From: Candidatus Lindowbacteria bacterium RIFCSPLOWO2_12_FULL_62_27
GTDB taxonomy: Bacteria > Lindowbacteria > 2-12-FULL-62-27
Length of the DNA: 35,200 bases
Assembly: GCA_001784175.1 (NCBI GenBank)
Contig: MFPR01000022.1
Span: 1 to 35,200 of the forward strand
Direction: 5' to 3'
Shown: positions 1 through 33,200 of the stretch, piece after piece
Numbering within the stretch: position 1 is the first letter of the stretch
Layout: every line of letters starts with the position of its first letter
The notes under the pieces: model-generated
Seen by the model: only the letters and a program-made list of their open reading frames with translations
Database searches by the model: none
Told to the model about the DNA's origin: nothing
Translations under genes and position numbers: made by a program

Positions 1-740
1 CCCAGCCCGCGCCCAGCGCCGCCGGCGCTTTCGACGCCGGCACCCGCCGCCGGTCCGTGTACACCACCGTCCGCGCGTCGTCCGTGTCGCCCGGGCGGGT
101 CGACACCAGGATCACGTACATGCCGTCGCCCGCCGTCAGCGGGATTGATTGCGTGAGACCGCCGGAATCGGTCGTCGTGCCCGAGGGGTTGGCGACTTCG
201 GTGCCCTCATACTCAACCTTGAAATTCACGATCGCGTTCGGCACTCCTTCGCCGGACGAATCCTTGACGGTGACCTGAAACGCCGCCGACCCGCCGCTCG
301 GGACCATCTGGTGCGCGCCGCTGTCGATGATGGCCGAATCGCCGCCGACGCCGGCCGCGACCATCGTCGCGGTCATGGTCCGCAGATCGCCGGACGGTGT
401 GTCGATGTAGGTCACGCGGATCTGGTCGGACGCGCGCACCAGGAGCTTGCCGCTGTTGGGTGTGTCCGACGCCATTGTCGTCATCATGATCTTGCCGGAA
501 AAGACCGGCGAGTCCACGCTGATCTCCGTACACGTCACCGTTTCCGTTTCCGTGCCCAGCGTCAGGTTCACGATCGTCACCGTACAGGTCTGGACCACGC
601 CCGGGTCCGTGTTCGGGTCCGAGTCGTTCACTTCCACCGACACGCTGTCGCCCGCGCGCACCTTGATGTACGCCGCCGTCGCGCCCGTGTCGCTGACAAA
701 CCGCACGCCGCCTGACCCGCCGAAGATCGGGTTCACTTTG
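1..740 (-). other. C-terminal Ig-like tail of the giant beta-helix protein, shared with the second giant protein
   Basis: After the ninth Fn3 domain the frame reads VEVNDSDPN, SGKLLVRASDQIRVTYID, SAIIDSGAHQMVPSGGS, then VPNAIVNFKVEYEG and LTQSIPLTAGDGMYVILVST, ending VVYTDRRRVPAS at the window edge. Each block has a counterpart in the same order in the protein encoded at 35200-27293 (EVNDTDPN, SGKLFVRPGDVVRVNYLD, ILSAGGS, SSITLTLGSGNGIYVVTAT, VVYTDKRDVPAN). The second half resembles bacterial Ig-like (Big_1/invasin) domains. By analogy, a few hundred more residues and a sorting domain probably follow outside the window. Confidence 0.75.
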
Positions 741-3700
741 GAGACGTCCGACATGAACCCCTCCAGATTCGCGCCGTTGAACGTGCTCGAGTCGAACGCC
801 AGCACGCGGTAATAGTAGACGCTGCCCGGGACGAGGTCGGTGTCGATCAAAAACGTGTCGCCCGCCGCCGTATCAGGCAGGGGCGCGAGGAGCCGCCAGT
901 TCGAGGTGTCGTACAGGTTTCTCAAACGGAATACGCGGTATCCGGCGATTTCCGGGGCGCTGCCGTCCTCCTCCTGCGAGGGAGGCGACCACCGGATGAG
1001 GTTGCGGTTCGGCACGTTGTTCTCGATCACCACGCCGGTCGGCTTCCTCGACGCGCTCGAATCGCCGCTCGCGCGCGTGTCGACGGGGGCGAACCGGAAA
1101 GATTGCGCGACAAATCCGCTGCTGCGACTTTTCCTTTTGATCTCCTCTGAATCGGTTGTTCCAAAATAATTATAGTTGGCGGTGGGGAAGCCGCTGACGA
1201 ATACGAAGGAGTCGGAAATATTGTAAAGGTTGTTCCACTGAATCTCTCCGGTACTGAGCCCCCCGCTGATAGCGGTGTCGGCGTTGGAAATATCGTTGGC
1301 ATGGATGGTGTGGCCAAACCCCGGAGCTGATACCGCCAACCGGACGTTACGGATATTGTTTCGGACAATGCTGCCCGAGTTGCCGTTCAGATAAATCCCC
1401 CGCCAGGCCCCCCGAACGATGTTGTCCGCGATCAATATTCCGTTGGCGGACGACGACACCTGCCAGACCACGGTCGCCGCGCTCGTGCCGGTCACGTTTT
1501 CGGCGTAGCAGTTCCGAATCATTGCGTTGGCGCCGTCCACTTGGACGACCGCTTGGGAGAAATTGACGGCCGTGCAGTGCTCAACCGTGATGTTCGCGGC
1601 GCCGGATTTGCCGAACAATCCGTAGGCGGCGTTCCGGACGGTCACGTTGCGGATGATGAGCGGCTGGCCGGCGTTGGATTGGTTCGCCACGAGGATCTTG
1701 ACACCGGTCGACGAATCCCGGCCGTCCACCACGAATCCTTCGATCCGCGCACTGCTGTCCACCGTGAACATCGCGCCCGTCAGGCCCGACGTCTCGCCGC
1801 TCCACGTCACGGTCGGGAACGTGTCCCCGCCGCCGCCGTTGTCGGTTCCGAACAGAGCCTTGCGCGAGATGAGGGTGAGACCGCTGTCGATCGAATAACC
1901 GGTGTCGGAAATGGAATAGCTGTCACGCATGGATTTGAACACGATGATGGTGTCGAATCCGTTCGACGGGTCGAGCGCGGACAGCGCGGAATCGAGCGAC
2001 GGGAACGCCGCGATCGGGCTGTCCGCACTAGGCTGCGTGGCCTGGCCCGAGTCGCTCAGATAGACGGTCATCGATCCGAGATCGCAGAACGAGCCGCCGG
2101 GCGTCGCCTGGAAGCTGTCGGTGAAATAACTTTCGTTCGGGAAGGGCGTTGCGGCGTCAAAGGCGGTCAGGCGGTAGAAATACGTGACGCCGTTGGTCAC
2201 CGCCTGGTCCACATAAGTGGTGTCGGCCGAGGGCCGCTCAGTCAAAAACGCGTTGCCTTTCCAGTCCCGCTCGGCCGGATTCGTCGTCCGGTAAATCCTG
2301 AATCCCGTATGCCCAGGCGCCGCCTCGCCCGCCTCGTTCACGGTCGGCGCGGTCCACCGGACCTTCACGGCCCCCGCGCAGATCGACGACGCCCAGAACG
2401 CGCCCGCTGTCTCGTACGGCGCAAGGCTGTCGCCGGACACGCTCGTGTCGACCGGCGCGAATCGCGGCTGGGTGTCGGCGGCGTATGCCAATCCCCCCTT
2501 GTCCAATCCATCCCACACGAGGCCAAAGAGTGTGCGTTTGGTCACGATATTGTCGTTCCAGTCGCCTTCATTCGTCGTGTCCATGTAATTTCGCCAGAAA
2601 AAGTTGGTCGCCACCTGGCCGTTGGCCAGGAATATCCCGTAACTGTCGGGCTTCAAGACATTGTTGCGAATAAACCGGTTGCCGCCCGGCGGATTGAGCG
2701 CTCCTTTGTCAATGTAGATGGCATAGCGGTCGCCATGCGACTCGTTCTGAATAAACGTGTTGGTGTCGGAATTCGCCAACACATAAAATCCGGCGGTCGT
2801 GTCGTTTTCCGCCGACAGATTGCGCGCGAGGGTGTTCTGCGTGCTCATGTCCAGCGTGAAGCCTTCGGTGTTGTACATCGCGATGTTGCCGGTCACCGCG
2901 TTGCCCGTGGCCGACGACAGATAGATGCCGCGGTAGTTGCCCATCATCGTGTTGCCGCTGATCGTGTTGTTCGAAGACCCGGTAACATAAATGCCCTGGA
3001 CGCCGTTGGAAATGACGCTGTTGCCGCTGATGGTGTTGCCCGCGGCGTTGACCGAGATGCCGATCGTCCCGTTGGCCCTCACGGTATTGCCGCTGACCGT
3101 GTTGCCGGATGAAACGATCCTGATCCCGTTACCGGTGTTAGAGTCGACCACACAATTGCTGACCGTGTTGGTGTCAGAGCCCGCGCCAAGATAGACGCCG
3201 ATGCTGCCGTTGCCGCTGATGCTGTCGCCGCTCACGATCGAATTCGTGACGGCGTCCAGAAATACTCCGTGATACCCGCCCGTCACGCCGATGTTTCTGA
3301 TCACCATGCCGGTTTGCGTGTCCGCGTATATGCCGTAGAGTCCGGCCGTCGAGATCGCCCCTGGCGGGTCGATGACGCTGCGGTTCGAATCCACGCCCTC
3401 GATACAGATATAGTCGGTATCGATCACGACGGTCTCCGCGTACGTGTTGCGGTCGATCAGGACCGTGTCGAATTGCTGGGTGTCGGCCGGAATTGCCTGG
3501 AGGGCGCGGGTGATGGTCTTGAACGGATAGTTCGGATGCCCCGTGAACGTGTCGGCGCCGGTGTCCTTGTCGACGTACCACACCGGACCGCCCCAGTAGG
3601 GGACGGCGACGACCGCGACTTTCGTGTCCGTGAAAAACGACTGATTGACGACCGTGGACGCATCGAAGCTCGTCAGCTTGTAATAATAGGTGTTGCCGAT

Positions 3701-6700
3701 GGCGACGTTCGTGTCCGTCCAGGTCGTGTCCGACGCGCCGGTGGTCTTGACAAGGAGAACGGAGTTGGCCCATTGGGTCGTGTCGACCGCGTTGAGAAGC
3801 CGGTATATTTTAGCGCCGGCGAATCCGCTCAGGCTCTGCGTGTCCTCGTCCGCCGTCGGAATCGCCCACGTCAGCGTCACCGACACGCCGCTCGAGGTGT
3901 CCACCGTCACGTTCTGCGGCTCCAGCGGCGCGCGGGTGTCCGCGCCGGCGGCGGTGTCGACGACGCCCAAGCGGTAGGGCCGGAAGGTCGACGCGGTGTC
4001 GACGAACTTCGCCGAGATCGTCACCTCGTCCGTCGTGCCGAACCAGTTGCGTTTCATCGTCTGCGTCAATCCCGCCTTGTTCAGCACGCTGCTCACGGCG
4101 TTGCCGGTGAGGTTGTTGTGGGCAAGGATGTTGTTGAAGGCCGCGCCGTTGATGAGGACGCCGGTGTCGTTGCCGGAGATGTCGTTCAGCCGGACGCCGT
4201 TGGTGTCGGAGGCGTCGATGTAAAGGCCGGCCTGGACGTTGGATTTGATCGCGTTGTTCCAAAACGTGTTGAGGTTGCTGGCGCTTGAAATCCAGACGCC
4301 GTATTCCCTGTTGCCGGTGATGACGGAGTTCCGGACGACGTTGTTTTTCGACCCGCCGGTCAGCAGGAAGCCGTCAAACACATTGGAGGTAGCGGCGTTG
4401 CCGGTGAGGGTGTTGCCGTTGGCGGCGGAAAGTTCAATACCGGCGCTGAAGTTTCCGGAGGCCGCGTTGTTCTGAAGGGTATTGCCGTGACTGCCGTCCA
4501 CCACGATGCCGGTCAGGCCGTTCGAGTCGGCCGCGCAGCCCGTGACGGTGTTGGTGTCGGCGCCGTTAAGAAGATAAATGCCGTTGTTTCCGTTATCGCT
4601 CGCGCTGTCGCCGGATAGGGTCGAAAGATCGACGTTGCTGAACTTGATCCCGTCATACGCGCCGCGCACGGCGACGTTGCGGATGGTGACGCCGCTCCGG
4701 CCGGAGGCGTAAATGCCGTAGAGATCGGGCTGCGTTCTGGGACCCGGCGGATCGATCACGGTCGAGGCGGAGTCCTTGCCGATCAGATACAGATAGTCGA
4801 TATTGATGCTCGCGACGGCGGTTTCGGTCGCCGTGGGATTGACGTGCGAGTCGTACAGCCCGGCGTCGACAAACACGCTGTCGCCGGAAGTCGAGAACTG
4901 CAGGGCGCGCGAGATCGTCCGGAGCGGTTTGCTCGCCGTGCCCTCGCCCGCCGACGTGTCCGACCCGGCCGCGTAGGTGAAACTGTCGCCGGAGGTCGAG
5001 CCGTCGTTCACGAACCAGCTCACGCGGCTCGAATGCACCGCGCTGTCGCCGGGCTGGGAGTCGGAGTAAAAGCTTTCGTTCTTGAGCGGCGCGGCGGTGT
5101 CGTAGGCCGTGACACGGTAGTAATACGCGCGCCCCAGAACCACGTTCGTGTCCTGAAACCGCGTCGTTGTGCTGATCGCCAGCGATATCCAGGACGACGT
5201 GTCTCTGATTCCGCTCCGGTAAATCCCGTACGCCAGCACGCCCGGAGACCCGCCCATACCCTCTTCATTGGTGTTCACCGCGCTCCATTCCAGCACGATC
5301 GACGTGTCGTTTGAGATGATCGCCACTGTGTCCGGAGATTCCGGCGCGGTCGTGTCGGCGCCGGCGGCGGTGTCGACCATGCCGAGACGGTAGGGTTGAT
5401 ACTGGATCCCGTTGGTGGCCGACGTATCGTAAATCCGGCGCTGAATGGTGACCGAGTCGGCCGATCCCCACCAGTTGCGGGTGAAATCGAACGCGAAGCT
5501 CGTGACATTCTTGACGCCCGAATCGGGCCGGGCGTCCGAGCCGCGGAGATTGTTTTTGGCGAAGAGATTCGAACGCGAGTTTCCCGTGAGGGACAAGGCC
5601 CAACCACCGTTCGAATCCACCTGATTCTGAATCATCCGGTTGGATTGCGCCCCAACGAAACGCGCGCCGTCCAGCGTGTTGCTGAAACTGAGATTGCCCG
5701 TCAGGATGTTGCTGTCCGAACTGCTCACGTCGAATCCGTACTGCGAATTTTTGATGACGGTATTGCCGCTGAACACGTTGCGGTCGCTGCCGGAGGTCAG
5801 CCGGAAGCCGCTCAAGGCGTTGTTCGAGACGGAATTGTTTAGAAAGGCGCACGTGTCGGCTGAGGACAGAAAGAATCCGTTCGCGTTGGACATGCTGGTG
5901 TTGTTGGACAGCGTATCGCTGTTCGATCCGTCCACGTCGAATCCGCCGGCGCTGTTGGACGTGGCGGTGTTGCCGGTAATGACGTTGCCGTTGCTGGAAC
6001 CGTTCAGCCGGATGCCGTCATTGGAATTGCCGGTCACGGTGTTGCCGCTCAACGTGTTGAAACTGGAAGATGTCAGCGTGATTCCGTCGCCAGGCGTGTT
6101 GGAGGCGGCGGTGTTGGCGGAAAGAACGTTTGAATTCGACTGGGTCAGAACAATACCGTTGCCGTTGGATGCCGCGTAATTTCCGGAGATCGTGTTCCCG
6201 GCCGACGCGCTCAGTGAGATGCCGGTTCCCTGGTTGCTTTGGACGGTGTTGGACGAGAGGACATTCGTGTCCGAGCCGTTTTTAAGAATCATCCCCGCGC
6301 CGTCGGGGTAGGGGTCCCCGCCGAGCGTGGTCAACTCCACAGTGACGTTCTCGATGCGCGAGTTCGTGACGCCCGACCACTCGATGCCGATCAGACAAAT
6401 TTGGACCCGCAGGTTCCGGATCAAGAGTCCCGTCTGCGTGTCGGCCTGAATGCCCCTCATACTGTCGCTCGCAAGATCGTCGTTGGGATTGATCACGGTT
6501 GCGCTCGAATCCTTGCCGATGAGACTCACCCGGTCGGTGTCGATCGTCAGCGTTTCGTTGTAGGTTCCGGAGTCGATGTAAATCGTGTCGCCGGCCGACA
6601 CGAATTTCAGCGCGCGGCTGATTCTGAGGAACGGGCTCGACCTCTGCAAGCCCGTGTTCGTGTCGGCGCCGGCGGCGGTCGTGTAGGAGTCGCCGATGGT

Positions 6701-9700
6701 GAAGCTGTCGTTGACGTACCAGACGTTCGGCAGGGTCGTGTCGAGGCTGGGGACGACGCTCAAGGTGTCGGTGAAGACAGACTCGTTGAAGAATCCTCCG
6801 GTCAAGGTTTCGGATGCGGAGACGCGGTAGTAATAGGTGAGGCCGTCGGTCACGGCGAGGTCCACGTAATTCGTCTGGCCCGACGCCACGCTCGCCCGAA
6901 ACGCGTTTCTCCAGTCGCTCGTGTCCGGCGTCGAGATCAGGCGATAGATGCGGTACTCGCCGAACGCGTCCGGCGTGCCGCCGTCCTCATCGAAGTCCGG
7001 CGTGTCCCACGAGACCGTGACCTGGCCGCCCGTGCCGCTGACGCCGTTCAGCGCGAACGTGTCGGGCTTGCCGGGCGCGGTGGTGTCGGACTCGTCGGCG
7101 CTGGTATCCGGAGGCGTGGTGAGGTGCGGGAAAATCTTCACGGATCCGTCGGCAGCCATTTTCGACAGGATCGCGTTCATGTCGCGGATGCCCCACCAGT
7201 TGCGGCGCGCGTCGAAGTTCGGCGAGGAGCCCATGTCCAGCAGCGTCGAGCCGATGTTGACGAGACTGTTTTTGGCGAACGTATCGGCGCCCGCGCCCAA
7301 TAGCCAGACGCCGGTGTCGGAATTATAAATCTGGTTGTGGTAAATGTGGTTCTGTCCGCCCGTCGAGACGAATTCTGTCGCCATGTTGGCGTCGCGCACG
7401 ATGTTGTCGCGGACGACGTTGCGGGCGGTGGAAGTCTTGAGCTTGATCCCGTGGCCGTGGCCGGTCGGGTGCTTCTGCCGCTCGACGGTGTTTCTGTAGA
7501 TGAGGTTGTTCTGGCTTCCGTTATCGAAGTGGATGCCGTCGCGGACGATGTCCGCAATGTGATTGTATTTCACCGTCGTGTAATGCGCGCTGTCGCCGAC
7601 AATACCGTTGTAAACGTTCCGGATCTCCATATTCCGCACGAATGCGCCGGAACAGGAATTCGGCAGAAACACGCCGTTATGTTCCAGCGCGTTCGCCAGT
7701 ACGCCTGCGACGCTCGTGCGGGTCGAGTCGATGCCGTCGAGGAACAGGCCCTCGACGATCGTGTTGGTCCACACCTTGAGAATCGTTCCCGTATCGAAGG
7801 CGACGCGCGGCAGAGTGTCGAATACCGGATCGGTCCCGATGATTCGCTTCACCGCGATGATCTTCACGCCCGTGTCGTTCGTCAGGTCCAGTTGCTGGAA
7901 ATAGGAATCGCCGCCGGGCCGGGCGAAAACCACGATCGTGTCCCAGCCGTTGTCCGGGCGGACCGCCGACAGCGCCTCGTTGATGTTGCGGAAGGCCTTC
8001 GTCGTGTCGTACGCGCCGGGGTTGGTCGAATCGCCGAAGGACGAGACGTACACAAGCGCCGCGCCGGTGTCGAACCAGGCCGGCGTCACCGATTTCGTGT
8101 CGGTGAAGAAACTTTCGTTCTCAAACGGGGTGAGGCCGTCCAGGGCGCTGAGCCGGTAGTAGTACTTCGTGCCGTTGGTCAGGCCCGTATCGACAAATGA
8201 ATTCTTTCCGGCCGGCACATCCTTGATCAGCGCGGAATCCCAGTGGGTCGTATCCGGAACGGCCAGCCGGAAAATGCCGACGCTCGTGAACCCCGACAGC
8301 GACGCCGAATCCTCATCCTGCGTCGGCGTGTCCCACGTGATGAGCGCGGTCTCGCTGCCAGCGTGGATCACGATCGACGTGTCGAACACGTAGGGCGCGC
8401 GGGTGTCGGCGCCGGCCGCGGTGTCGACCGGGGCGAGGCGGTAGGGCTTGAAGGCCGACGCGGTGTCGTAGAATTTCGCCGAGATCAGGGTCTCCTGCGT
8501 CGTGCCCCACCAGTTGCGGTTGAAGGTCTGAGCGGCGGAGGCCGGGCTGAATACGTTGTAGACGGTGTTGTTGGCCACGTTGTTCCGGGTGAAGACGTTT
8601 CCGGCGCCGGAATTCTGGATCCAGATGCCGGTGTCGTTCGACCGGAATTCGTTCTGGTAGACAATGTTCGAGTTGGACGCCACCAGGCCGAATCCGGACT
8701 GGGTGTTGGAATCCGAGAGGTTGTTGCGGACGAGGTTCCCGTGGGAATTGATTTCGATATAAATTCCGTGCTTGTTGCGGCGGGCGATGTTCCGGGTGAT
8801 GACGTTATTGCGGGAACTGGAATTCAAATGAATCCCCTGGGAATTTTCCTCGGCGATGTTGTTGTCGATCGTGTTGTTGAAACAGTTGGTCACCATGTAC
8901 AGGCCCTGGTTGAGGTTCGAGATCAGAAGGTTGTTGGAGATCGTATTGGAGTCACAGCCGTTCTGGAGATAAATGCCGCGGCCGACGTGGTCGCTGAGGC
9001 TGTCGCCGGTGATCGTGGAGGCGGTGACATTGAAAAAGCGTATCCCCTCGGTGGCGCCGGTGACGCCGAGATTCTTGATGAGAAGCCCCGTCTGCGTATC
9101 CGCATAGATGCCGTTGCCCGACGCGGGATCGATCACCGTCGCGTTGGAGTCCTTGCCGATCAGGCTGACGGAATCGACGTCGATGACGACCGTCTCGGCA
9201 TAGACGCCGCGGTCGATGAAAATCGTGTCGCCCGGCGTCACGAATTGAAGCGCCTTCGTGATCGTCCGCAGGGGCTGCTGCTTCGTTCCCTTCCCGCTCG
9301 CGTCCGATCCCGCCGCCGCGGCCCAGGAGTCGCCCGAGGTCGAATCGTCGTTGACATAGATTTCGACGGCCGCGCTCAGGACCGCGCTGTCGGAGGGCTG
9401 GGAGTCCGAAAAGAACGACTCGTTCTCGAACGGCGATGCCGTGTCAAACGCCGTCACCCGGTAATAGTACTTGCGGCCCAGCACGACATCCGTATCCTGA
9501 TACCGGATGCCGGTCGCCTGACCCACCTTCATCCACGACGACGTGTCTTTCACCTCGCTGCGGTAGACCCGGTAGCCCGACAGCGCGACGTTGCCGCCGT
9601 TGACCTCCTCCAACGCCGCCACCGCGCTCCACTCGAGGATGATCGACGTGTCGGACGGCGCGCTGAGGATCGCCACCGTGTCCGGCGCCTTGGGCGCGGT

Positions 9701-12700
9701 CGTGTCGGCGCCGGCGGCGGTGTCGACGGCGCCGAGGCGGTAGGGCTGCCAGGCCGAAGCGGTGTCGCCGAGTTTGGCCTTGATCGTCACCGAATCGGCG
9801 GAGCCGAACCAGTTGCGGCGCAGGGTCTGGGCGACGTCGGTCTGGTTGTAAATATTCTTGACGTTGTTGTTCGCGATATTGTTTTTGGCGATCAGGTTGT
9901 TCGTCGCGGCGTCCGATATCCAGATGCCGGAATCGTTGGCGGCGATGTCGTTCTGCAAGACCACGATCGACTCGGCGTTCTCCAGCCGGAGGCCGGCCTG
10001 GGTGTTGGACCGGATGAGATTGTTGCTGACCGTCAGGTCGGTGCTCGCCGAAATATACACGCCGAACTGCCCGTTCGACCGGGCGATGTTGCCGGTGATG
10101 AGAAGTCCGGTGTCCCCGCCGGTAGCGTCAATGCCGCTGGCGAGGTTCGATTGAACGGTGTTGCCCTGGATGAGGATGGAGACGCCGGCGTTGATGAAGA
10201 TGCCGTCCTGGGTGTTCAAGTTGGCGGTGTTGTTGAGGATCGTGTCGAGCGCCGATCCGTCCACGAGAATGCCGCCGACGGAGGAGTTCGCGTTGGCCGA
10301 GTTGTTGCTGACGGTGTTCAGGTTGGACCCCATGTGGAGATAAATGCCGTTGACGTTCGAATCGGCGATGTTGTTCGTGATCATGTTGTTGTGGCTGGTT
10401 TGGAGGTAGATGGCGGTGGAGTTCGAGTCCATGGTGTTCCCGCTGATGGTGTTGGAGTCCGCCGGATTCAGATGAACGCCGTGGGTGGCATTCTGACGCG
10501 CGCCATTATTGCTGACGGTGTTCCCGGCGGAGTTCCCGGACAGCAGAATCCCGGCGGCGCCGTTCAGATTCACGCTGTTGTTGCTGATCGCGCACCCGGC
10601 GCCGGCCTCGATCTCCAAGCCGTCGCTGGTGTTCGACCAGACCGCGTTGCCGGTGAGGGTGTTCGTGTCGGACCCATTGATCAGATAGACGCCGCGGTTG
10701 CCGTTCGAGCTGAAACTGTCGCCGCTCAAGGTGGCCCGGTCGACGTTGATGAAATAGAGGCCGCGGTTGGCGCCGGTCACGCCAAGCGTCTTGATCAACA
10801 GCCCGGTCTGGGTGTCGGCGTAAATGCCGTAGAGGCCGCTGACCGTCTTCGCCCCCGGCGGGTCAATCACGGTCGACGCCGAGTCTTTGCCCACGAGCGT
10901 GATCGAGTCCTTGTCGATGTTGACGCCCGCCGTCTCGGCGCCGTTGACGGTCACGTACGAGTCATACAATCCAGCGTCAATCCAAATCGTGTCCCCCGCC
11001 GTCGCAAACCGCATCGACATCGGGATCGTCCGGAACGGTTTGGCCGCCGTGCCCAGCCCCCACGAGGTGTCGCTCCCCGTCCCGCTTGTGTACACATCGC
11101 CCGTTACGCTCGTGTCGTTCACGTACCAGTTCACCTGCGAAGCGAACATCGCCGTATCCCCCGGCTGAGAGTCGCTGTAGAAACTCTCGTTCACCGTCGT
11201 CGATGTGTCATACGACGTCACGCGGTAGTAGTACGTCAGCCCAAGCACGACATCCGTGTCCTGATACCTGATCCCGCTCGTCACCTGCGCCACCTGTATC
11301 CACGACGACGTGTCTTTCGTCCGACTGCGGTAGACCTTGTACCCGCCAAGCGCGATGTTGCCGCCGTTCGACTCCTCAAGCGCCCCGACAGCCGCCCACT
11401 CGAGGATGACGGACGTGTCGCTCGGCAAGCCGCCAATCACCGCCACCGAATCCGGCGCGCGCGGCGACGTCGTGTCCGCGCCCGAGGTCGTGTCCACCGC
11501 GCCGAGCCGGAACGGTATGTAAGAATCAACCGATGAGGTAAACTTTGCCTTGATGGCAGCCGAATCCGTCGTGCCATACCAATTGCGGAGAGCATTTTGA
11601 TTGTTGCCGGTGTTGTTGTCGACAAATGCCCTGGCGCTTGAGATGATATTATTCTTCGTAACCTCATTTCCCCGGATGGTTCCGCCTCCCGTGATATAAA
11701 CGCCGGTATCCCCTCCCACGATTTCATTGGCATAAACAACATTGCTGTCTCCCACCAAAGCCACACCCGCATTGATATTCGACCTTATTTGATTGAACGA
11801 GATTGTGTTCATCGGACTGCCGTTGTTCAACACGATACCGTAACCGTTTGCATTGACGATGTTATTCGTTACGGTGTTGACCAACGGCCCGAAAATAAAC
11901 ACGATGCCGTATTCGGCGTTTGCATTCGCCGTGTTTCCGCTGATGGTGTTTTGGGTACTGTAGTATCCCAACTCGATGCCATACATCCCGTTGGAATTGC
12001 ATGTGTTGTTGCTGACAATTGTATTTGTGCATCGGCTCATGGAGAGGCCGACCTGCCAATTCGAGTTGAACGTATTTGAACTTATCGTGTTGCCGTAAGG
12101 TTTCCCAAGTATCAAGTCGCATCCGGTTCGATTGAAACTGGCAATACTGTTGACCACCGTATTGGTATCGGAACCGTTCACCAGGTCAATGCCGGTGCCG
12201 TCACAGTATGTGAAACTGCTGTTGTTGATCGTCGAACGATCGACCGAATTGAGATAAACGCCGTAGTAGGCGCCGGTCACACCGATATTTCTAATCGACA
12301 GATTCACCTGCGAATCGGCAAAGATTCCGTAGATCACCTGATCGGAGGAGTCGCCCGGAGGGTCGATGACGGTCGAAGCAGAATCCTTGCCGATCAGAGT
12401 AATCGAATCCTTGTCAATATGGACCCCGGCGGAATCATTTCCGGAGATGTAGACATACGAGTCATAGATCCCCGCGTCGACGTAGATGGTGTCGCCCGTG
12501 TCCGCGTACTGCATGGCCTTCGGGATGCTGGCAAACGGCCGCGCCGCCGTCCCCAGCCCCCACGACGTGTCGCTTCCCGTCCCGCTCGTGTACACATCGC
12601 CCGCTGCGCTCGTGTCATTCACGTACCAGTTCACCACGGGCGATGTCGCTCCGATGCTCGACACTTGCGAGTCGGAATAGAAACTCTCGTTGGCATAAGG

Positions 12701-14266
12701 CGACGCCGTGTCGAACGCCGTCACGCGGTAGTAGAACGTCGCGGCGCCCGTCGCGCTCGTGTCCTGATACCGAATGGAACCTGCCGCCACCGTTCCCATC
12801 AATGTCCACGACGACGTGTCCGCGATGGTGCTGCGGTAGACTTTGTATCCCGACAGCGCCGTGCCGCCTGCCATCGTCTCCTCGTTGGTCGTTACCGCCG
12901 CCCACTCCAGGATGATGGACGTGTCATTGTTCAGAACCGCGACCGTATCCGGCGCGTCCGGCGCAGTCGTGTCGGCGCCCGCCGTGGTGTCTACCGCGCC
13001 GAGGCGGAACGGCGTGTATCCGATGCGGTTGACGTAGCCCGTGTCGAACATTTTGCGTCCGATGGCCACCGTGTCCGCCGTGTTCCACCAGTTGCGCGCG
13101 AAATCGAAAGTTTTGCCGGTCCAGTTGTACACCCCGCTGTCGGGATTCGTCGCCGACGTCACGATGTTGTTCTTCTGCACAGTGTCCGACGACGATGTGC
13201 CGGTGATAAAGATCTGATACCGCGTATTCAGCCGCACGTCGTTTAGACTCACCGTGTTGTTCGAAGAAGAACTTAGATAGATTCCATAGTATGCGTTCGA
13301 ACTGAGCGTGTTGTTCGTGATCATGTTGTTGCTCGAACTCGTAGTCAAATACAGGCCGACGCTGCTATTCGACGTGATCGCGTTGTTCGTCACCGTGTTG
13401 TTCGAACCCCCGGTCAGATTGATGCCGGTGACGCCTGAAGGGATCGTGTTGTTCGATATCGTGGCGCCGCCCGAGCCGTTAGCCAGTTGGATTCCGACGC
13501 TTCCGTTCGAAGTGAGCGTGTTGTTCGTCACCGTGCTGCCGTTCGCACCCCCGTTCAGCATGATGCCGTAGAGGTTCGAAGCGACCGTATTGTTCGTCAC
13601 CGTGTTGCTGTTCGAAGACGAAAACACATCGATGCCGCTGTTTGTATTCGACACCGCCGTGCTGTTTTTGACTGTGTTGGTGTCGGACCGGAAGTACAGG
13701 TAGATGCCGTCGTTGCCGCAGGAACTTGCGCTGTCGCCGTCGATGGTCGAGTAGTCCACGTTATAGAAATGAATCCCGTTATACGCCCCCGTCACGCCGA
13801 TGTTGCGGATGAACAGATTGATCTGCGTGTCGGCGTAGATGCCGTACAGACCGGACTGCGTCTTGGGCCCGGGCGGATTGATGACCGTCGCGCCCGAGTC
13901 CTTGCCGACGAGCGTGATGGAGTCCTTGGTGATGTTGACGCCCGCCGTTTCCGTGCCGTTCACCGTCACGTACGAGTCATACAGTCCCGCGTCGATGTAG
14001 ATGGTGTCGCCGATGGCCGCGGAATCGATGGCGCTCTGAATGCAGCGAAACGGCTCGGCGGCGGTGCCGGGCTGGGTGTCTTCGCCGTTGGACGACGTGT
14101 AGACGTCGCCGGCGGCGCTGGTGTCGTTCACGTACCAGTTGGCGGCCTCGGCTCTCGAAGTTAAAAGTGAAAAGCTAAAAGTCAACAGCGATAAAGGCAG
14201 GATGAGCGGCAAGCGGACCAGAAAGGAGGAAAAGGGGACGGATACTAACTTTTTAACATTTCGCAT
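1..14266 (-). CDS. Giant secreted parallel beta-helix / Fn3 repeat protein (3' end beyond window)
   Basis: One minus-strand frame stays open from an ATG at 14266 to the left edge, at least 4,755 codons without a stop. The N-terminus MRNVKKLVSV is followed by a long hydrophobic stretch and a likely signal-peptidase site after SRAEA (about residue 41), so the protein is exported. Nine modules follow. Each has a WYVND-like cap, a GDTIYIDAG-type strand, a SLIGKDS / VIDPPG strand, a NLGVTGA turn, many NTVSGN-type coils of about 22 residues (right-handed beta-helix, pectate-lyase-like fold), an RNWWG motif, the linker PYRLGAVDTAAGADT, and an Fn3 domain ending YYYRVTAFD. From about base 740 down comes a non-helical tail with an invasin-like Ig domain. 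An in-frame ATG at 14305 is possible, but 14266 gives the better signal peptide. No catalytic residues were recognised; adhesin, polysaccharide-binding or surface-layer roles are guesses. Confidence 0.93.
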   Translation of the reverse strand, partial: MRNVKKLVSVPFSSFLVRLPLILPLSLLTFSFSLLTSRAEAANWYVNDTSAAGDVYTSSNGEDTQPGTAAEPFRCIQSAIDSAAIGDTIYIDAGLYDSYVTVNGTETAGVNITKDSITLVGKDSGATVINPPGPKTQSGLYGIYADTQINLFIRNIGVTGAYNGIHFYNVDYSTIDGDSASSCGNDGIYLYFRSDTNTVKNSTAVSNTNSGIDVFSSSNSNTVTNNTVASNLYGIMLNGGANGSTVTNNTLTSNGSVGIQLANGSGGATISNNTIPSGVTGINLTGGSNNTVTNNAITSNSSVGLYLTTSSSNNMITNNTLSSNAYYGIYLSSSSNNTVSLNDVRLNTRYQIFITGTSSSDTVQKNNIVTSATNPDSGVYNWTGKTFDFARNWWNTADTVAIGRKMFDTGYVNRIGYTPFRLGAVDTTAGADTTAPDAPDTVAVLNNDTSIILEWAAVTTNEETMAGGTALSGYKVYRSTIADTSSWTLMGTVAAGSIRYQDTSATGAATFYYRVTAFDTASPYANESFYSDSQVSSIGATSPVVNWYVNDTSAAGDVYTSGTGSDTSWGLGTAARPFASIPKAMQYADTGDTIYVDAGIYDSYVYISGNDSAGVHIDKDSITLIGKDSASTVIDPPGDSSDQVIYGIFADSQVNLSIRNIGVTGAYYGVYLNSVDRSTINNSSFTYCDGTGIDLVNGSDTNTVVNSIASFNRTGCDLILGKPYGNTISSNTFNSNWQVGLSMSRCTNTIVSNNTCNSNGMYGIELGYYSTQNTISGNTANANAEYGIVFIFGPLVNTVTNNIVNANGYGIVLNNGSPMNTISFNQIRSNINAGVALVGDSNVVYANEIVGGDTGVYITGGGTIRGNEVTKNNIISSARAFVDNNTGNNQNALRNWYGTTDSAAIKAKFTSSVDSYIPFRLGAVDTTSGADTTSPRAPDSVAVIGGLPSDTSVILEWAAVGALEESNGGNIALGGYKVYRSRTKDTSSWIQVAQVTSGIRYQDTDVVLGLTYYYRVTSYDTSTTVNESFYSDSQPGDTAMFASQVNWYVNDTSVTGDVYTSGTGSDTSWGLGTAAKPFRTIPMSMRFATAGDTIWIDAGLYDSYVTVNGAETAGVNIDKDSITLVGKDSASTVIDPPGAKTVSGLYGIYADTQTGLLIKTLGVTGANRGLYFINVDRATLSGDSFSSNGNRGVYLINGSDTNTLTGNAVWSNTSDGLEIEAGAGCAISNNSVNLNGAAGILLSGNSAGNTVSNNGARQNATHGVHLNPADSNTISGNTMDSNSTAIYLQTSHNNMITNNIADSNVNGIYLHMGSNLNTVSNNSANANSSVGGILVDGSALDTILNNTANLNTQDGIFINAGVSILIQGNTVQSNLASGIDATGGDTGLLITGNIARSNGQFGVYISASTDLTVSNNLIRSNTQAGLRLENAESIVVLQNDIAANDSGIWISDAATNNLIAKNNIANNNVKNIYNQTDVAQTLRRNWFGSADSVTIKAKLGDTASAWQPYRLGAVDTAAGADTTAPKAPDTVAILSAPSDTSIILEWSAVAALEEVNGGNVALSGYRVYRSEVKDTSSWMKVGQATGIRYQDTDVVLGRKYYYRVTAFDTASPFENESFFSDSQPSDSAVLSAAVEIYVNDDSTSGDSWAAAAGSDASGKGTKQQPLRTITKALQFVTPGDTIFIDRGVYAETVVIDVDSVSLIGKDSNATVIDPASGNGIYADTQTGLLIKNLGVTGATEGIRFFNVTASTITGDSLSDHVGRGIYLQNGCDSNTISNNLLISNLNQGLYMVTNCFNNTIDNNIAEENSQGIHLNSSSRNNVITRNIARRNKHGIYIEINSHGNLVRNNLSDSNTQSGFGLVASNSNIVYQNEFRSNDTGIWIQNSGAGNVFTRNNVANNTVYNVFSPASAAQTFNRNWWGTTQETLISAKFYDTASAFKPYRLAPVDTAAGADTRAPYVFDTSIVIHAGSETALITWDTPTQDEDSASLSGFTSVGIFRLAVPDTTHWDSALIKDVPAGKNSFVDTGLTNGTKYYYRLSALDGLTPFENESFFTDTKSVTPAWFDTGAALVYVSSFGDSTNPGAYDTTKAFRNINEALSAVRPDNGWDTIVVFARPGGDSYFQQLDLTNDTGVKIIAVKRIIGTDPVFDTLPRVAFDTGTILKVWTNTIVEGLFLDGIDSTRTSVAGVLANALEHNGVFLPNSCSGAFVRNMEIRNVYNGIVGDSAHYTTVKYNHIADIVRDGIHFDNGSQNNLIYRNTVERQKHPTGHGHGIKLKTSTARNVVRDNIVRDANMATEFVSTGGQNHIYHNQIYNSDTGVWLLGAGADTFAKNSLVNIGSTLLDMGSSPNFDARRNWWGIRDMNAILSKMAADGSVKIFPHLTTPPDTSADESDTTAPGKPDTFALNGVSGTGGQVTVSWDTPDFDEDGGTPDAFGEYRIYRLISTPDTSDWRNAFRASVASGQTNYVDLAVTDGLTYYYRVSASETLTGGFFNESVFTDTLSVVPSLDTTLPNVWYVNDSFTIGDSYTTAAGADTNTGLQRSSPFLRISRALKFVSAGDTIYIDSGTYNETLTIDTDRVSLIGKDSSATVINPNDDLASDSMRGIQADTQTGLLIRNLRVQICLIGIEWSGVTNSRIENVTVELTTLGGDPYPDGAGMILKNGSDTNVLSSNTVQSNQGTGISLSASAGNTISGNYAASNGNGIVLTQSNSNVLSANTAASNTPGDGITLTSSSFNTLSGNTVTGNSNDGIRLNGSSNGNVITGNTATSNSAGGFDVDGSNSDTLSNNTSMSNANGFFLSSADTCAFLNNSVSNNALSGFRLTSGSDRNVFSGNTVIKNSQYGFDVSSSDSNILTGNLSFSNTLDGARFVGAQSNRMIQNQVDSNGGWALSLTGNSRSNLFAKNNLRGSDARPDSGVKNVTSFAFDFTRNWWGSADSVTIQRRIYDTSATNGIQYQPYRLGMVDTAAGADTTAPESPDTVAIISNDTSIVLEWSAVNTNEEGMGGSPGVLAYGIYRSGIRDTSSWISLAISTTTRFQDTNVVLGRAYYYRVTAYDTAAPLKNESFYSDSQPGDSAVHSSRVSWFVNDGSTSGDSFTYAAGSDTSAGEGTASKPLRTISRALQFSTSGDSVFVDAGLYDSHVNPTATETAVASINIDYLYLIGKDSASTVIDPPGPRTQPDLYGIYASGRSGVTIRNVAVRGAYDGIKFSNVDLSTLSGDSASDNGNNGIYLLNGADTNTVTGCAADSNGLTGIVVDGSHGNTLQNNAASGNFSAGIELSAANGNTLTGNAATSNVFDGFLLTGGSKNNVVRNSVITGNREYGVWISSASNLNTFWNNAIKSNVQAGLYIDASDTNGVRLNDISGNDTGVLINGAAFNNILAHNNLTGNAVSSVLNKAGLTQTMKRNWFGTTDEVTISAKFVDTASTFRPYRLGVVDTAAGADTRAPLEPQNVTVDTSSGVSVTLTWAIPTADEDTQSLSGFAGAKIYRLLNAVDTTQWANSVLLVKTTGASDTTWTDTNVAIGNTYYYKLTSFDASTVVNQSFFTDTKVAVVAVPYWGGPVWYVDKDTGADTFTGHPNYPFKTITRALQAIPADTQQFDTVLIDRNTYAETVVIDTDYICIEGVDSNRSVIDPPGAISTAGLYGIYADTQTGMVIRNIGVTGGYHGVFLDAVTNSIVSGDSISGNGSIGVYLGAGSDTNTVSNCVVDSNTGNGIRIVSSGNTVSGNTVRANGTIGISVNAAGNTISGNSVISNGVQGIYVTGSSNNTISGNTMMGNYRGIYLSSATGNAVTGNIAMYNTEGFTLDMSTQNTLARNLSAENDTTAGFYVLANSDTNTFIQNESHGDRYAIYIDKGALNPPGGNRFIRNNVLKPDSYGIFLANGQVATNFFWRNYMDTTNEGDWNDNIVTKRTLFGLVWDGLDKGGLAYAADTQPRFAPVDTSVSGDSLAPYETAGAFWASSICAGAVKVRWTAPTVNEAGEAAPGHTGFRIYRTTNPAERDWKGNAFLTERPSADTTYVDQAVTNGVTYFYRLTAFDAATPFPNESYFTDSFQATPGGSFCDLGSMTVYLSDSGQATQPSADSPIAAFPSLDSALSALDPSNGFDTIIVFKSMRDSYSISDTGYSIDSGLTLISRKALFGTDNGGGGDTFPTVTWSGETSGLTGAMFTVDSSARIEGFVVDGRDSSTGVKILVANQSNAGQPLIIRNVTVRNAAYGLFGKSGAANITVEHCTAVNFSQAVVQVDGANAMIRNCYAENVTGTSAATVVWQVSSSANGILIADNIVRGAWRGIYLNGNSGSIVRNNIRNVRLAVSAPGFGHTIHANDISNADTAISGGLSTGEIQWNNLYNISDSFVFVSGFPTANYNYFGTTDSEEIKRKSRSSGFVAQSFRFAPVDTRASGDSSASRKPTGVVIENNVPNRNLIRWSPPSQEEDGSAPEIAGYRVFRLRNLYDTSNWRLLAPLPDTAAGDTFLIDTDLVPGSVYYYRVLAFDSSTFNGANLEGFMSDVSKVNPIFGGSGGVRFVSDTGATAAYIKVRAGDSVSVEVNDSDPNTDPGVVQTCTVTIVNLTLGTETETVTCTEISVDSPVFSGKIMMTTMASDTPNSGKLLVRASDQIRVTYIDTPSGDLRTMTATMVAAGVGGDSAIIDSGAHQMVPSGGSAAFQVTVKDSSGEGVPNAIVNFKVEYEGTEVANPSGTTTDSGGLTQSIPLTAGDGMYVILVSTRPGDTDDARTVVYTDRRRVPASKAPAALGAGW
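806..14138 (-). repeat. Nine tandem beta-helix + Fn3 modules
   Basis: Module caps begin near 14138, 12626, 11126, 9360, 8050, 6716, 5014, 3578 and 2066. The Fn3 YY(Y/F)R-type motifs that close the modules lie near 12726, 11219, 9459, 8152, 6822, 5109, 3678, 2171 and 806. Modules are 1.2-1.8 kb long; most of the variation comes from the number of beta-helix coils, while caps, the RNWWG motif, the GADT linker and the Fn3 domain recur. Modules five and nine carry a variant cap (VYVSS / VYLSD, then ALSA, NG(W/F)DTI(V/I)VF and a GTD strand) in place of WYVND. Confidence 0.88.
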
Positions 14267-14305
14267 CAGAGCACCGTCTGGATGTCCGGGAAAGGGGTCA
14301 AGCAT

Positions 14306-14386
14306 TAAGTTATTGAAGTTATTGTTCCAGCGAGGAAGGGATTTCATAGGGCTGCGGTGCCAGCCCCTAAGTTATTGAAGTTATTG
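14306..14386. repeat. 19-bp direct repeat (two copies) upstream of the giant beta-helix gene
   Basis: The 19-mer TAAGTTATTGAAGTTATTG occurs at 14306-14324 and again at 14368-14386, 62 bp apart. Each copy contains two adjacent AAGTTATTG 9-mers. The second copy overlaps the left arm of the 21-bp inverted repeat that brackets the RAYT gene. The repeats lie between the RAYT stop codon and the giant gene's start, so they occupy its 5' region; an in-frame ATG at 14305 abuts the first copy. Confidence 0.8.
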
Positions 14387-15369: not shown

Positions 15370-15393
15370 ATTCGGGGGGCTGGCACCATTCGG
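15359..15393. repeat. Tandem REP-like repeat, 2 x 17 bp
   Basis: GGGCTGGCACCATTCGG occurs at 15359-15375 and 15377-15393, a period of 18 bp, just upstream of the RAYT start. Its GGCTGGCACC core is the reverse complement of the GGTGCCAGCC core at 14356-14365 on the other side of the gene. This is probably the RAYT's cognate repeat. The remaining bases to the next gene (15394-15608) show no convincing gene or hairpin terminator. Confidence 0.75.
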
Positions 15394-17341: not shown

Positions 17342-17344
17342 CTC

Positions 17345-27292: not shown

Positions 27293-30200
27293 TCAGCGGA
27301 CGATCGCGAGCTTGTCGATGAGTTTGTTGCCGCTCGATTCGAGGATGTAGATGTAGACGCCCGAGCCGACTTTCTGGCCGTGCTTGTTGGTGGTGTCCCA
27401 CTTGAGCGTCATGTTGAGGCCGGCCTTGCCGGGTTCGGCGAGTTCCCGGATGAGGCGGCCGGCGACGTCATATATCTTGAGTGTGACCGGCGCGTCGGCG
27501 GGCAGACTGTACTTGAAGGTCATCTGGCCGGTGGCGGCGTCCGGGCCCGGATTCGGGTAGACGAACGACTGTTCCTTGTCGAGCGCGGCCGCAAGGAAGG
27601 CGGCGAGATAGTCCGGCAACCCGACGGCCAGGGTCAGTTTGACCGACGAGGACAGCATGACGGCGGTGGAGGCCGCGCTCTTCATGTCGACCGGGCCCGA
27701 CGGACCGCCGATGAGCACGGCGCCGAATTCGCCCGGCACGTTGCTCGCGTCCCACTTCAGCGTCACGGGGCCGGTCGGGCCTGTGACGACCACCGGCCAC
27801 GCGGCCGCCGTTTTCACCGGCGCGCCGATGCTCGCCGCATAGTATTTCCCGGATTCTTCGGCCGGTGATTCCGGCGACGAGGGTTCGCCGATCCATACCT
27901 GCACGTCGCCCGCCATGCCCGGGGCCTTCCAGAGATCGTTCATGTCTTCGTCATTCCGCGCCGCGGGGGCAACGCCCACGAAGTTGTACTCGTCCCGCAC
28001 CTGACTGTCGCCGGTGTAGGCCATGAGCTGGAGCCGCCAACTTGAAATATCCCCTCCCCCCTGCGAGTAGACGGGGGCCGATTGCTTGACCTTGGTCGAC
28101 TGCGGCATGCGCTTGTTGCCGCCGTAATAGACGATGGTGCAGGCCGTGTTGATCTTGACCCAGTATCCGACCCACGGTTTGATCTGCAGAGAATCCTCGC
28201 CGGTGGACGTCAGGGACGCGAGATACTGCCCCGCGCTGTGATCCCGCCACTGGAGTTTGGTGTCGATGTACGTGGTGGTGCGCAATTGGGACAACGGGTA
28301 CTGACACCCTGTTGCATCGGTTTCCACGTAGACGTCGTCAAGCCAGTTGATGAAGTGCGGGAACGGGTTGCCGATCATATTGGCGCCCGCGGTCATGATG
28401 GTTTTCGCGTAGCTGGCGGTGGACACCACGGGAGTCCCGAGAAGCCCGACGGACGTCGCCGACGTCGATTTGAACCAGTAGGCCTGGCCGGTGTCATATT
28501 TAGTGAACTCGCCGTTTGCCGAATTGTTCGGCGAGGCCTGGCCGGTAACCGATTTGTATCTATAAAAGGTCGCGTTCGAAGACGAGATGGTCGGATCGTT
28601 CGAATAGGACAGGCCCGTGCCGCTGTAAGACAACTGGCCAAGACCGGTGAGGGACTGGTCCGGCCGTTTGAAGGGCGAGAACATGACCCATGTGTTCGCC
28701 GGGACATCGCGCTTGTCGGTGTAGACCACGATTTGCGCCTGTCGGGAGCTCGCGCTCGTCGCCGTCACCACATAGATGCCGTTGCCGCTGCCGAGCGTCA
28801 GGGTGATCGACGACGTGAAGCCATTCGAGCCCGTCGTGGTGGACGACGTGGGAGACAACGTCGCGCCGCCGGCGGCGTTGGAGCCGTTATAATCGACGGT
28901 GTAGGACACGGTCGCGTTGGACACGGTGTCGCCGGTGGTGTCGTAGGCGGCGATCCTGAAGGTCATCGAGCCGCCCGCGCTCAGGATGTGGTGGTTGCCG
29001 GTGTCGAACACGAGCGAGTCGCCCGTCGTGCCGCCGCCTTCGATCGTGGCCGTCGCCGTGACCAGAATCAGGCGGGGGCTGTCCAGATAATTGACGCGGA
29101 CCACGTCGCCCGGCCGGACGAAAAGCTTGCCGCTGGCGGCGGCGGAGTGCGAGCTGCTGACCAGCGAGATCGGGAAACTCTCGCGGAAGACGCTTGCGTT
29201 GGCGCTGAGTTCGCCAAGGGTCGCCGTTTCGTATTCGGCGTTGCCCTCGGAGTTGAACGTCACATTTTCAAGCCAGACCTGCACGCTGTCCACGGCGCCG
29301 GTGTTCGCATTCGGATCCGTGTCGTTCACTTCGATCACGATGCTGTCATGCCGGATGGCCTTGTAGGTCGTCGCGACCGATCCGCCCTTCGTCAGCATCT
29401 GCACCGTGCCGAACCGGACGTTCGTGTCGGACCGGAAAGAGCCGGTGGCCGAATAGGCGCTGTTGTTGGCCAGATCGTCGATGGTCCTGACGCGCCAATA
29501 GTATGTGTCGATGTACAAATTCGTGACCGTGTCGCTGGTCCGCGCGCCGTCGATCGTGTCAGAGAAGGTGAGGGACGTAAAGTTGGTGTTCTTGGACACT
29601 TCGAGGGCGAACGAATCGATCCCCACGCTGTCCGAGCCGGCTGTCCACGACACCACAACCTGCGACACGGTCGTCTCGTGGCCGTTGACCGGCAGCATCG
29701 TGTCCGGCCGCGGCGCGTGGGTGTCGACGACGAATCCACGCGCGGTCGAGTGCGCGCTGACGTTGCCGAGATCGTCAATTGCGCGGACGTGCCAGAAGTA
29801 CGTGTCGTTGTAGAGAGGCGACGCGGTCCGGCTGGCGGTGGCGGCGTCGAAGGTGTCGTTGATGGCCATCATCGTGAAGTTGCTGTTCTTCGACAGCTCG
29901 ATCGCGTAGCTGTCCAAGCCTACGCTGTCGGAAACCGCAGTCCATGAGAGCACGATAGAGGTGTTCGTGGTCTCATGCGCGTCGGCCGGCTGGCTGAGCG
30001 TTGTGACGTTGACGAGAGTGTCGACGACGAATCCCCGCGTGGCCGAATTGGGGCCGACATTGGCCAGATCGTCGATCGCGCGGACACGCCAGAAATAGGT
30101 GTCGTTATACGTGCCCGTGATGTAATCGGTGGTCGCCGTGCCGTCGACGGTGTCGGCGAAGACGGTCGTGGCGAACGACGTGCCTTTGGACGCCTCGACC

Positions 30201-33200
30201 ACGAATGAATCGATCCCCACGCTGTCGTCCAGGATGGCCCAACTGACCGGGATCGACAGCGCGGTGGTTTCTGTTCCGTCGGCCGGCGCGGACACCGTCA
30301 CCTGGCTCGCGTGCGTGTCGAGGAGAACCGTCTGGGTGGCCGTGGTGTCGGTCAGGGCGCCGACCGCCACGGTGCTGATGACGCCCACGCGCCAGAAGTA
30401 GGTGTCTTCGCGGGGCAGCTTGAAGGTGGTGTCCGTGGCCGCGTCGAATACCTGCTGCGCGAGGATGGAGGCGAAGGTCGACACCTGCGATATCTGGAAT
30501 ATGTAGGTGTCGACATTCGAGCCGCTCCACTGGAAGACGATGTTTGCGTTGGTCGTATCGTGCGCGACCGTCGGGGACACCAGCGCGACGCCGAAGGACG
30601 TGTCGACCTTGAAGGCGAACGTCTCCGAATAGGCGCCGGCATTGGCCAGATCGTCGATCGCCTTGACGCGCCAGTAATAGTGGGTGTCGCCGATGAGTTC
30701 CTTGGTGGTCGAATCGGTGAAGGTTCCATTTCTTGTGTCGACGTGGAGCGTCTGCGCGAACGACGTGTCCCGGGCAATCTCGACCACGTACGAATCGACG
30801 CCCACGCTGTCCGAAATCGCCTGCCAGGTCAGGGTCGGGGTCGTGTCCGTCGTCACGGCGTTGTTGACCGGCAACAGCAGCGTGACTTTCGCGATGATCG
30901 TGTCCGTCACGAATCCCCGGGTCGACGAATACGCGCCGGCGTTGGCGCGGTTGTCGACCGCGCGAACGCGCCAGTAGTACGTGTCATTGTACAAGCCGGT
31001 CACGGTGTCGCTGGTGAACGCGCCGTCGATCGTGTCGGTGAACGCGATGCCCGTGAAGCCGGTGTTCTTCGACACCTCCACCGCGTAGCTGTCGATCCCG
31101 ACGCTGTCGGCCAGCGTGCTCCAGCTTACGAGGAAGTTGGTGGCTGACGTTTCATGCGCGTCGGCCGGCAACGACAGAGCCACGGCGCCGATCAGGGTGT
31201 CGGTCACGAACCCGCGCATGGTTGACCATGCGCCGCCGTTGCCCAGATCGTCGACCGCTCTGACATGCCAGAAATAGGTGTCGTTGTAGAGACCGGTCAC
31301 GGTGTCGCTGGTGAATGCCTGATCGATCGTGTCCGTGAACGCCAGATTCGTGAATAGCGAGTTCTTCGAAACCTCCACGGCATAGCTGTCCACACCCACG
31401 CTGTCCGTAACCGAACTCCAACTCACCACGACGCTGGTCACCGCTGTCTCGTGACCGTCGGACGGCTGGCTCAGGCTTACCACCTTCACGATCGTGTCCG
31501 CGATGAATCCCCGCGTGGTCGAGAAGGATCCGCCGTTGGCGAGGTTGTCGACCGCCCGGACGCGCCAGAAGTATGTGTCGTTGTAAAGTCCGGTGATCGC
31601 GTCGCTCGTAGAGGCGCCATCGATCGTATCGGTGAAGGCGATGCTCGTGAAGCCCGTGTTCTTCGACACCTCCACCGCGTAGCTGTCGATCCCGACGCTG
31701 TCGGCCAGCGCGGTCCAGCTTGCCGAGAAGTTGACGGCATTTGTTTCATGCGCGTCCGCTGGCAGGGACAACGTCACCTGGCCGATGAGTGTGTCGACGA
31801 CGAATCCGCGTGCGCTCGAATAGGCGCTCACGTTGCCCAGGCCGTCGATGGACCGGACGCGCCAGAAATGCGTGTCATTGTAGAAGGGCGACACGTTGAG
31901 GACGTTGGCGCCGGTGATGGCCTGGAAGGTGAGGCCGAGCGGCGTCAGTATGGTAAAACTGCTGTTCTTCGCTATCTCCACCGCGTAGCTGTCCAAGCCG
32001 ACGCTGTCCGGCTCCGCGGTCCAGCTCAACCGGACGTTCGTGGCGGTGGTTTCGTGCCCGTCCGCCGGCCCGGTGGGCGAAGGGGCAGTGACAATGGTGT
32101 CGGTCACGAACCCCCTCGAGGTCGACCAAGCGCCGCCGTTGCCGAGGTCGTCGATGGCCCGGGCACGCCAGTGGTAGGTGTCGTTGTAGAGGCCGGTGAC
32201 GGTGTCGGACGTGTTAGCCTGGTCGACGGTGTCGGTAAACGCCAGATTCGTGTAGTCTGAATTTTTCGAGACTTCGACCGCGTAGGAATCAACGCCGACG
32301 CTGTCGGAAACGGCAGTCCACCGGACGACAAAATCGATCGCCGTCGTCTCGTGGCCGTCCGCCGGAAGGGACGCGGACACCTGGTTCACGATCGTGTCCG
32401 TCACAAACCCGAGGGTCACCGAGAACGAGCCGCTGTTGGCCAGAGTGTCGATTGCGCGCACCCGCCAGTAATACGTATCGTTATAGAGGCCCGTCACCGT
32501 GTCGTTCGTGAACGATCCGTCCACCGTGTCCGTGAAGGCGATGCTTGTGAAGGCCGTGTTTTTCGACACCTCCACTGCGTAGCTGTCGATCCCGACGCTG
32601 TCGGCCAGCGCGGACCAGCTCACCAAAATGTTGATCGCCGTCGTTTCGTGGCTGTTCGCCGGCTGCGAGGCGCTCACCTGGTTGACACTCGTGTCGAGGA
32701 CGATCGACCGCGTCGCTGTGGTGTCCACCGTGTTGGTGGACCCCCGCGTTCCAATGACACGCCAGTAAAAGGTGTCCTGGTCGGGCAAAGCCTTTGTGCA
32801 GGACGTGACGGTCGTGTCGGCAACGGTGAGCAGGATGCTGGAAAATGAAGCCGATCTCGACAACTGCCACGTGTACGTGTCGACGTTGGTCCCGGCCCAA
32901 TTGAACACCACGGTGCCGTTCGTCGTCTCATGGCCGTCCGCAGGGCTGGTCAGAGAGATGGAGAAGTTGGTGTCGACCTTGAACGCGAACGAGTCCGCGG
33001 CTGCGAGGGTGCCGGCGTTCCCCAGATCATCGATCGCCTTGACGCGCCAGTAATAGGTCGTGTCGCCATACAGAACCACGGTCGTCGAATCGGTCGACGC
33101 GCCGTCCCGCGTGTCCTCGTGCAGAATCGCAGAAAACGTCGAGTCGCCTTTTGATATATGGAGAACGTAACTGTCGATCCCCACGCTGTCCGACACCGCG

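Follow-up and report, generated by a model that had tools for sequence, protein, structure and literature searches.

A giant minus-strand gene of beta-helix and Fn3 modules in Candidatus Lindowbacteria, likely one member of a family of exported surface fibres

The left 14 kb of a contig from Candidatus Lindowbacteria is occupied by a single minus-strand reading frame that never closes, which poses the question of whether a gene of this size is real and, if it is, what kind of protein a chain of several thousand residues might be: an enzyme array, a surface structure or an accident of assembly. Here, we take up these possibilities in turn, beginning with the frame itself and its modules and moving from there to its C-terminus, its fold and its relatives in the same and neighboring genomes.

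The giant frame

The window, by which we mean the whole stretch of DNA analysed, is the entire 35,200-base contig C22 of a source assembly of 44 contigs and 4.39 Mb (C-numbers denote contigs of the window's genome, G000). The open reading frame listing places the giant frame (designated P0001) at 2..14347 on the minus strand, with 4,782 stop-free codons, an ATG start and an open 3' end. An earlier reading made from the sequence only had described a single minus-strand frame of at least 4,755 codons, unclosed in the window, a number that corresponds to positions 14266 to 2 as counted from Met28 (residue 28). This description stands: over the same stretch the giant frame has 0 stops, where the two remaining minus frames have 63 and 170 and the three plus frames 25, 150 and 223, and its GC content per codon position (0.50/0.49/0.83) is strongly coding. 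Chance as the origin of the open frame is ruled out by these stop counts and the codon-position GC. The plus-strand mirror frames are likewise long, as had been pointed out (e.g. 8243..11536, 1,097 aa). The stop codon is missing because the edge of C22 cuts the gene, and its absence is not a biological feature. The giant gene is real and near-complete.

Also in agreement with the sequence-only reading, the chain probably has a secreted start: residues 28-69, read by eye, form a signal-peptide-like stretch (MRNVKKL...LPLSLLTFSFSLLTSRAEA-A) that begins at Met28 and ends in AEA-A. A short element, AATAACTTCAATAACTTA, is present on the minus strand at 14306-14323 and again at 14368-14385, with six exact copies in the genome and zero for a reversed control. 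In the sense direction, the copies on C22, on C24 and at C6:257083 either coincide with the start of a giant gene or closely precede it, positions that suggest that Met28 is the true start, and another copy at C6:152132 is located approximately 1.5 kb upstream of a frame of 9,114 aa. The element could represent the end of a transposon or a 5' element that is shared. A gene for a RAYT-like (REP-associated, Y1) transposase (14356-15389) directly precedes the giant and is bounded by a 30-nt inverted repeat (14356-14385/15340-15369, 93%).

The features of the giant frame and of a second giant in the window are as follows.

2..14347, minus strand: giant open reading frame, 4,782 codons, 3' end cut by the contig edge
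14141..14266, minus strand: likely true start (Met28) and signal-peptide-like segment, by sequence reading only
12632..14140, minus strand: module 1, beta-helix and Fn3, 503 aa (alignment, Pfam)
11132..12631, minus strand: module 2, beta-helix and Fn3, 500 aa (alignment, Pfam, model with pLDDT 88.5, structure matches)
9365..11131, minus strand: module 3, beta-helix and Fn3, 589 aa (alignment, Pfam)
8057..9364, minus strand: module 4, beta-helix (DUF1565 match) and Fn3, 436 aa (alignment, Pfam)
6725..8056, minus strand: module 5, divergent beta-helix and Fn3, 444 aa (alignment, Pfam)
5021..6724, minus strand: module 6, beta-helix and Fn3, 568 aa (alignment, Pfam)
3584..5020, minus strand: module 7, beta-helix and Fn3, 479 aa (alignment, Pfam)
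2072..3583, minus strand: module 8, beta-helix and Fn3, 504 aa (alignment, Pfam)
713..2071, minus strand: module 9, most divergent beta-helix and Fn3, 453 aa (Beta_helix 27.2 bits, cut-off 25.9; fn3 20.8 bits, cut-off 25)
2..712, minus strand: start of a C-terminal block common to the giants, Ig-like, weak Big_1 (homology, Pfam)
27293..35200, minus strand: second giant frame, 2,635 aa, 5' end cut (Fn3/Ig repeats, same C-terminal blocks, complete tail)

Alignment divides the chain into nine modules of 436-589 aa with pairwise identities of 23-53%. The usual module order is a head of the W/I-Y-V-N-D type, the beta-helix, a motif of the R-N-W-W-G type at the helix end, a VDT.AGADTTAP linker and then an Fn3-like domain that ends in NESF.SDS. 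Profile searches found the helices, with Pfam Beta_helix over its gathering score in 9/9 modules (27.2 to 167.5 bits, cut-off 25.9; module 9 clears it narrowly) and the NosD and DUF1565 profiles matching as well, whereas the fn3 scores of 20.6-20.8 bits fall below the cut-off of 25. Both the alignment and the structure model show the Fn3 part clearly: the module profile matches titin chains, and the modelled C-terminal part has a beta-sandwich-like strand pattern. The alignment, the nine Beta_helix matches and the AlphaFold model of module 2 described below together uphold the nine beta-helix and Fn3 modules that had been read from the sequence. Module 9 is followed by a block of 237 residues with weak Ig-like (Big_1) similarity.

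The missing C-terminus and the export route

The last 266 aa of the giant frame match a pre-tail block, at 40% in the other window giant and 44% in C19, that sits approximately 1.4 kb before the stop in two other genes of the genome. A 469-codon frame at the right end of C24 is open at its 5' end and begins with VMFSP; at the corresponding junction, the other window giant reads ...VPANTW followed by VMFSP, and P0001 ends in ...LGAGW. The two contigs can be joined with a one-base overlap that keeps the frame (TGG GTG ATG). The best relatives of the C24 end piece are the C24 giant (70%), C19 (57%) and the right giant of the window (57%), and the same three are the best relatives of P0001's C-terminal block. 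From this homology and the one-base overlap, not from reads, we infer that the C24 frame continues the giant, which would give a full protein of 5,251 residues (5,224 from Met28). The leftward search for a stop thus met the contig end inside the gene, and the terminus is placed on C24 provisionally. The C24 end frame matches TIGR04183 at 31.2 bits (cut-off 23), as a T9SS type A/FlgD-like tail. A tail of this kind is also over the cut-off in the second window giant, which has the same C-terminal blocks as P0001. The two giants are separated by a minus-strand gene cluster, RDD - SpoIIM - DUF58 - MoxR - DUF4350 - DUF4129 (15609-22790), and by a FapA protein at 25159-26604.

The nature of this tail bears on the alternative that survives best, namely that the giant is a surface protein that uses no T9SS-like route, its FlgD-like Ig domain being no more than a widespread end domain and its anchoring achieved by other means. 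The FlgD_ig and FlgD models match the tail too, and FlgD-like tails are also found in proteins unrelated to T9SS. Of the T9SS components sought, the C25 domain of the PorU peptidase was found neither in the window's genome (94% complete) nor in the control genomes, with a partial match in G001 only; GldM had no match in the genome, and likewise none in the controls. The SprA candidate on C20 (1,825 aa, with a 66% identical copy in G001) is weak, scoring 69-70 bits against a cut-off of 200, and it gave no match to the SprA_N profile, as was true also of the control genomes. The lack of a PorU peptidase match and the low SprA score would fit a route other than T9SS. Against this, the genome has 29 sites that match TIGR04183 (Por_Secre_tail, the T9SS type A tail), the tail resembles the C-terminal region of PorU in the PDB (chain 6za2, E 3.8e-7), and each of the three genomes of the family has an expanded PorV_fam, which exceeds its cut-off at least 13 times in the window's genome. 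The PorV genes, on C44, C18, C31, C10, C28, C30 and C40, often lie within approximately 1 kb of a tail-bearing gene, hinting at dedicated PorV-cargo pairs. We consider a surface protein without any such route to be rather unlikely. With the tail and PorV present, SprA weak and PorU not found, a T9SS-like export route is plausible but unproven, and we make no claim of T9SS membership.

Fold of the modules and the question of catalysis

Module 2, which the sequence-only reading had named for structure prediction, was modelled by AlphaFold (AF2) using 36 modules taken from this window and related public contigs. The model (pLDDT 88.5, pTM 0.87) is a long right-handed parallel beta-helix to approximately residue 350, followed by a beta-sandwich-like domain. 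Its closest PDB folds are the A-modules of AlgE6/AlgE4 (Z 39-40, rmsd 1.8-1.9 A, 316-323 residues, 20% identity; for 5lw3, Z 40.3 and rmsd 1.9 over 323 residues), and NosD (Z 35) and phage tailspikes are among the other matches, which range overall over Z 30-40. A Z score of about 40 to these A-modules confirms, for module 2, the beta-helix fold that the sequence-only reading had proposed.

The same match invites a second alternative, that of a secreted polysaccharide-active enzyme array built of AlgE-like lyase or C5-epimerase modules in which every helix is catalytic, and AlgG/AlgE match the module profile by sequence as well. The residues, however, point elsewhere. The DPH/DPHE motif is absent from the whole giant frame; none of its 35 His in 4,782 residues is conserved between modules; no conserved His/Lys/Arg catalytic cluster was found in the helices; and no catalytic Pfam family matches the giant frame. 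The helix positions that are conserved at 75% or more are instead mostly N, T, S and D at coil turns and caps, i.e. Asn-ladder and end-cap positions. A fold shared with AlgE does not show function, and because conserved catalytic residues were not found, the helices are most likely rods and binding faces and not enzymes. The suggestion of lyase-like units is accordingly dropped, and an enzyme array is quite improbable.

A family of giant genes

At least 26 frames of at least 2,000 residues are present in the genome, amounting to 120,149 codons or approximately 8.2% of the assembly; the count is a lower bound because the genome was sampled by search, and some of the lengths include a stretch before the true start. 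The beta-helix/Fn3 module is carried by at least 12 of these giants, among them one closed frame of 9,114 aa within C6 (266 kb) and another of 5,498 aa within C28 (392 kb). Such chains had been called unusual, a judgement that finds no support within the giant's own genome, where this many paralogues share the module. The remaining giants include Fn3/Ig arrays, e.g. the second giant of the window. On C2, a stop-free minus-strand frame of 22,286 codons (43827-110684) runs off the contig end and far exceeds P0001 in length; one gap of 18 N lies close to its 5' end and is followed by approximately 22,100 codons, the composition is uniform (GC3 0.88), and the 10,000 residues scanned include several FlgD_ig domains along with Ig-like (Big) and VWA domains. 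C40 carries a giant frame of 10,454 codons whose 3' end is cut by the contig edge.

Giant genes contain approximately 20 of the contig ends, and this would account for the fragmented assembly. The starts of C6 and C34 (C6:1 and C34:1) lie within near-identical Kelch-like sequence of two different giants, a likely cause of the assembly break there. That P0001 was itself lengthened artificially by an assembly chimera or collapsed repeats, as the MAG-like contigs and the contig ends in giant genes might suggest, is highly improbable, given that its modules differ strongly, that 14.3 kb pass without a stop or frame change and with coding composition throughout, that closed paralogues lie on long contigs, and that a second genome, G002, has the same architecture. 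A frame artefact is ruled out by the existence of the closed paralogues.

Relatives were sought with the first three modules as query, all nine together having given no conserved stretch. Two further genomes of the same family carry giants, G001 (Ca. Lindowbacteria nzgw232) and G002, the latter with frames of up to 6,275 aa, and the 57 more distant genomes covered by this search gave no match passing E 1e-40. Similar modules, at 28-32% identity, are found in single contigs labelled Hydrogenedentota and Dependentiae. Open-licence papers on Lindowbacteria and on beta-helix/Fn3/T9SS giants yielded no description of the giant family.

Tiles of P0001 find their best matches in different giants: module 1 in C24 (80-87%), module 3 in C34 (66-78%), module 5 in C24 (64-75%) and several Fn3 parts in C6. 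The best match of a complete module lies in the same protein in 15/41 cases, compared with 3.3 expected at random, and in another protein in 26/41. The pattern is consistent with tandem duplication as well as with exchange from one gene to another.

A proposed role

We put at roughly 0.6 the probability that the frame belongs to a lineage-specific set of giant exported multivalent surface fibres, likely adhesive. The long multivalent surface fibre first suggested from the sequence is retained as the most likely role. The signal peptide would send the giant chain through Sec, and nine rigid right-handed beta-helix rods with Fn3 joints would form an extended chain of roughly 90-100 nm when fully stretched (estimated at 4.8 A per coil and 3.5-4 nm per Fn3). 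The C-terminal T9SS type A/FlgD-like Ig domain may then target the chain to, or hold it at, the outer surface, where the helix faces could act as multivalent, non-catalytic binding surfaces for adhesion to carbohydrate, cells or mineral; a purely structural role would fit as well as binding. Diversity would arise via tandem duplication and module exchange between paralogous giant genes.

It is tempting to extend this reading to the genome as a whole. In this tentative and less probable proposal, approximately 8% of the Lindowbacteria genome would encode recombining giant mosaic fibres, composed of beta-helix/Fn3, Fn3/Ig and other modules with one exit tail. A reduced T9SS-like system that lacks PorU and has many dedicated PorV proteins would export them, and module exchange would create new binding specificities. 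If the export reading is true, T9SS-like secretion with an expanded PorV family extends beyond Bacteroidota and to chains 5,000 to 9,000 residues long. P0001 is a clean, fold-confirmed giant protein of repeated beta-helix rods from a lineage with almost no studied biology. Even so, the main interest lies less in the single frame than in the size and mosaic evolution of the family, whose giant genes recombine and break assemblies.

Comparison with known systems

The giants resemble T9SS type A cargo (TIGR04183/PF18962 tail) in their signal-like N-terminus and long beta-rich chain, in the C-terminal Ig-like tail that is over the cut-off in sister giants and in the presence of a PorV family in the genome. 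They differ in that PorU peptidase and GldM matches were not found in the genome and SprA is a weak candidate, in that the lineage lies outside Bacteroidota, and in that P0001's own tail would be on another contig. NosD/DUF1565 beta-helix families are the best sequence-profile matches for the giant's helices, but the NosD score is 282.4 bits against a cut-off of 300 even when summed over ten stretches, and the giant's modules stand in tandem. The neighbors (MoxR/DUF58/DUF4350/DUF4129/SpoIIM/RDD) include no nos genes.

The A-modules of AlgE-type mannuronan C5-epimerases (2pyg, 5lw3) share the right-handed parallel beta-helix, superposing at an rmsd of 1.8-1.9 A over approximately 320 residues. 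AlgE A-modules are partnered by RTX R-modules, whereas the giant frame has an Fn3 partner, nine helices and no catalytic motif. Finally, huge bacterial proteins (> 5,000 aa) constitute a class of surface proteins that is frequent in some environmental phyla (PMC11573180), a topic with earlier work on giant bacterial surface proteins (Reva and Tummler 2008, as cited in PMC11573180). P0001 has 4,782 codons in the window and passes the size threshold, at 5,251, only with the inferred C24 join. The giant frame is like these huge proteins in probably belonging to a surface-protein class; what sets it apart is the alternation of beta-helix and Fn3 and the many recombining paralogues within one genome.
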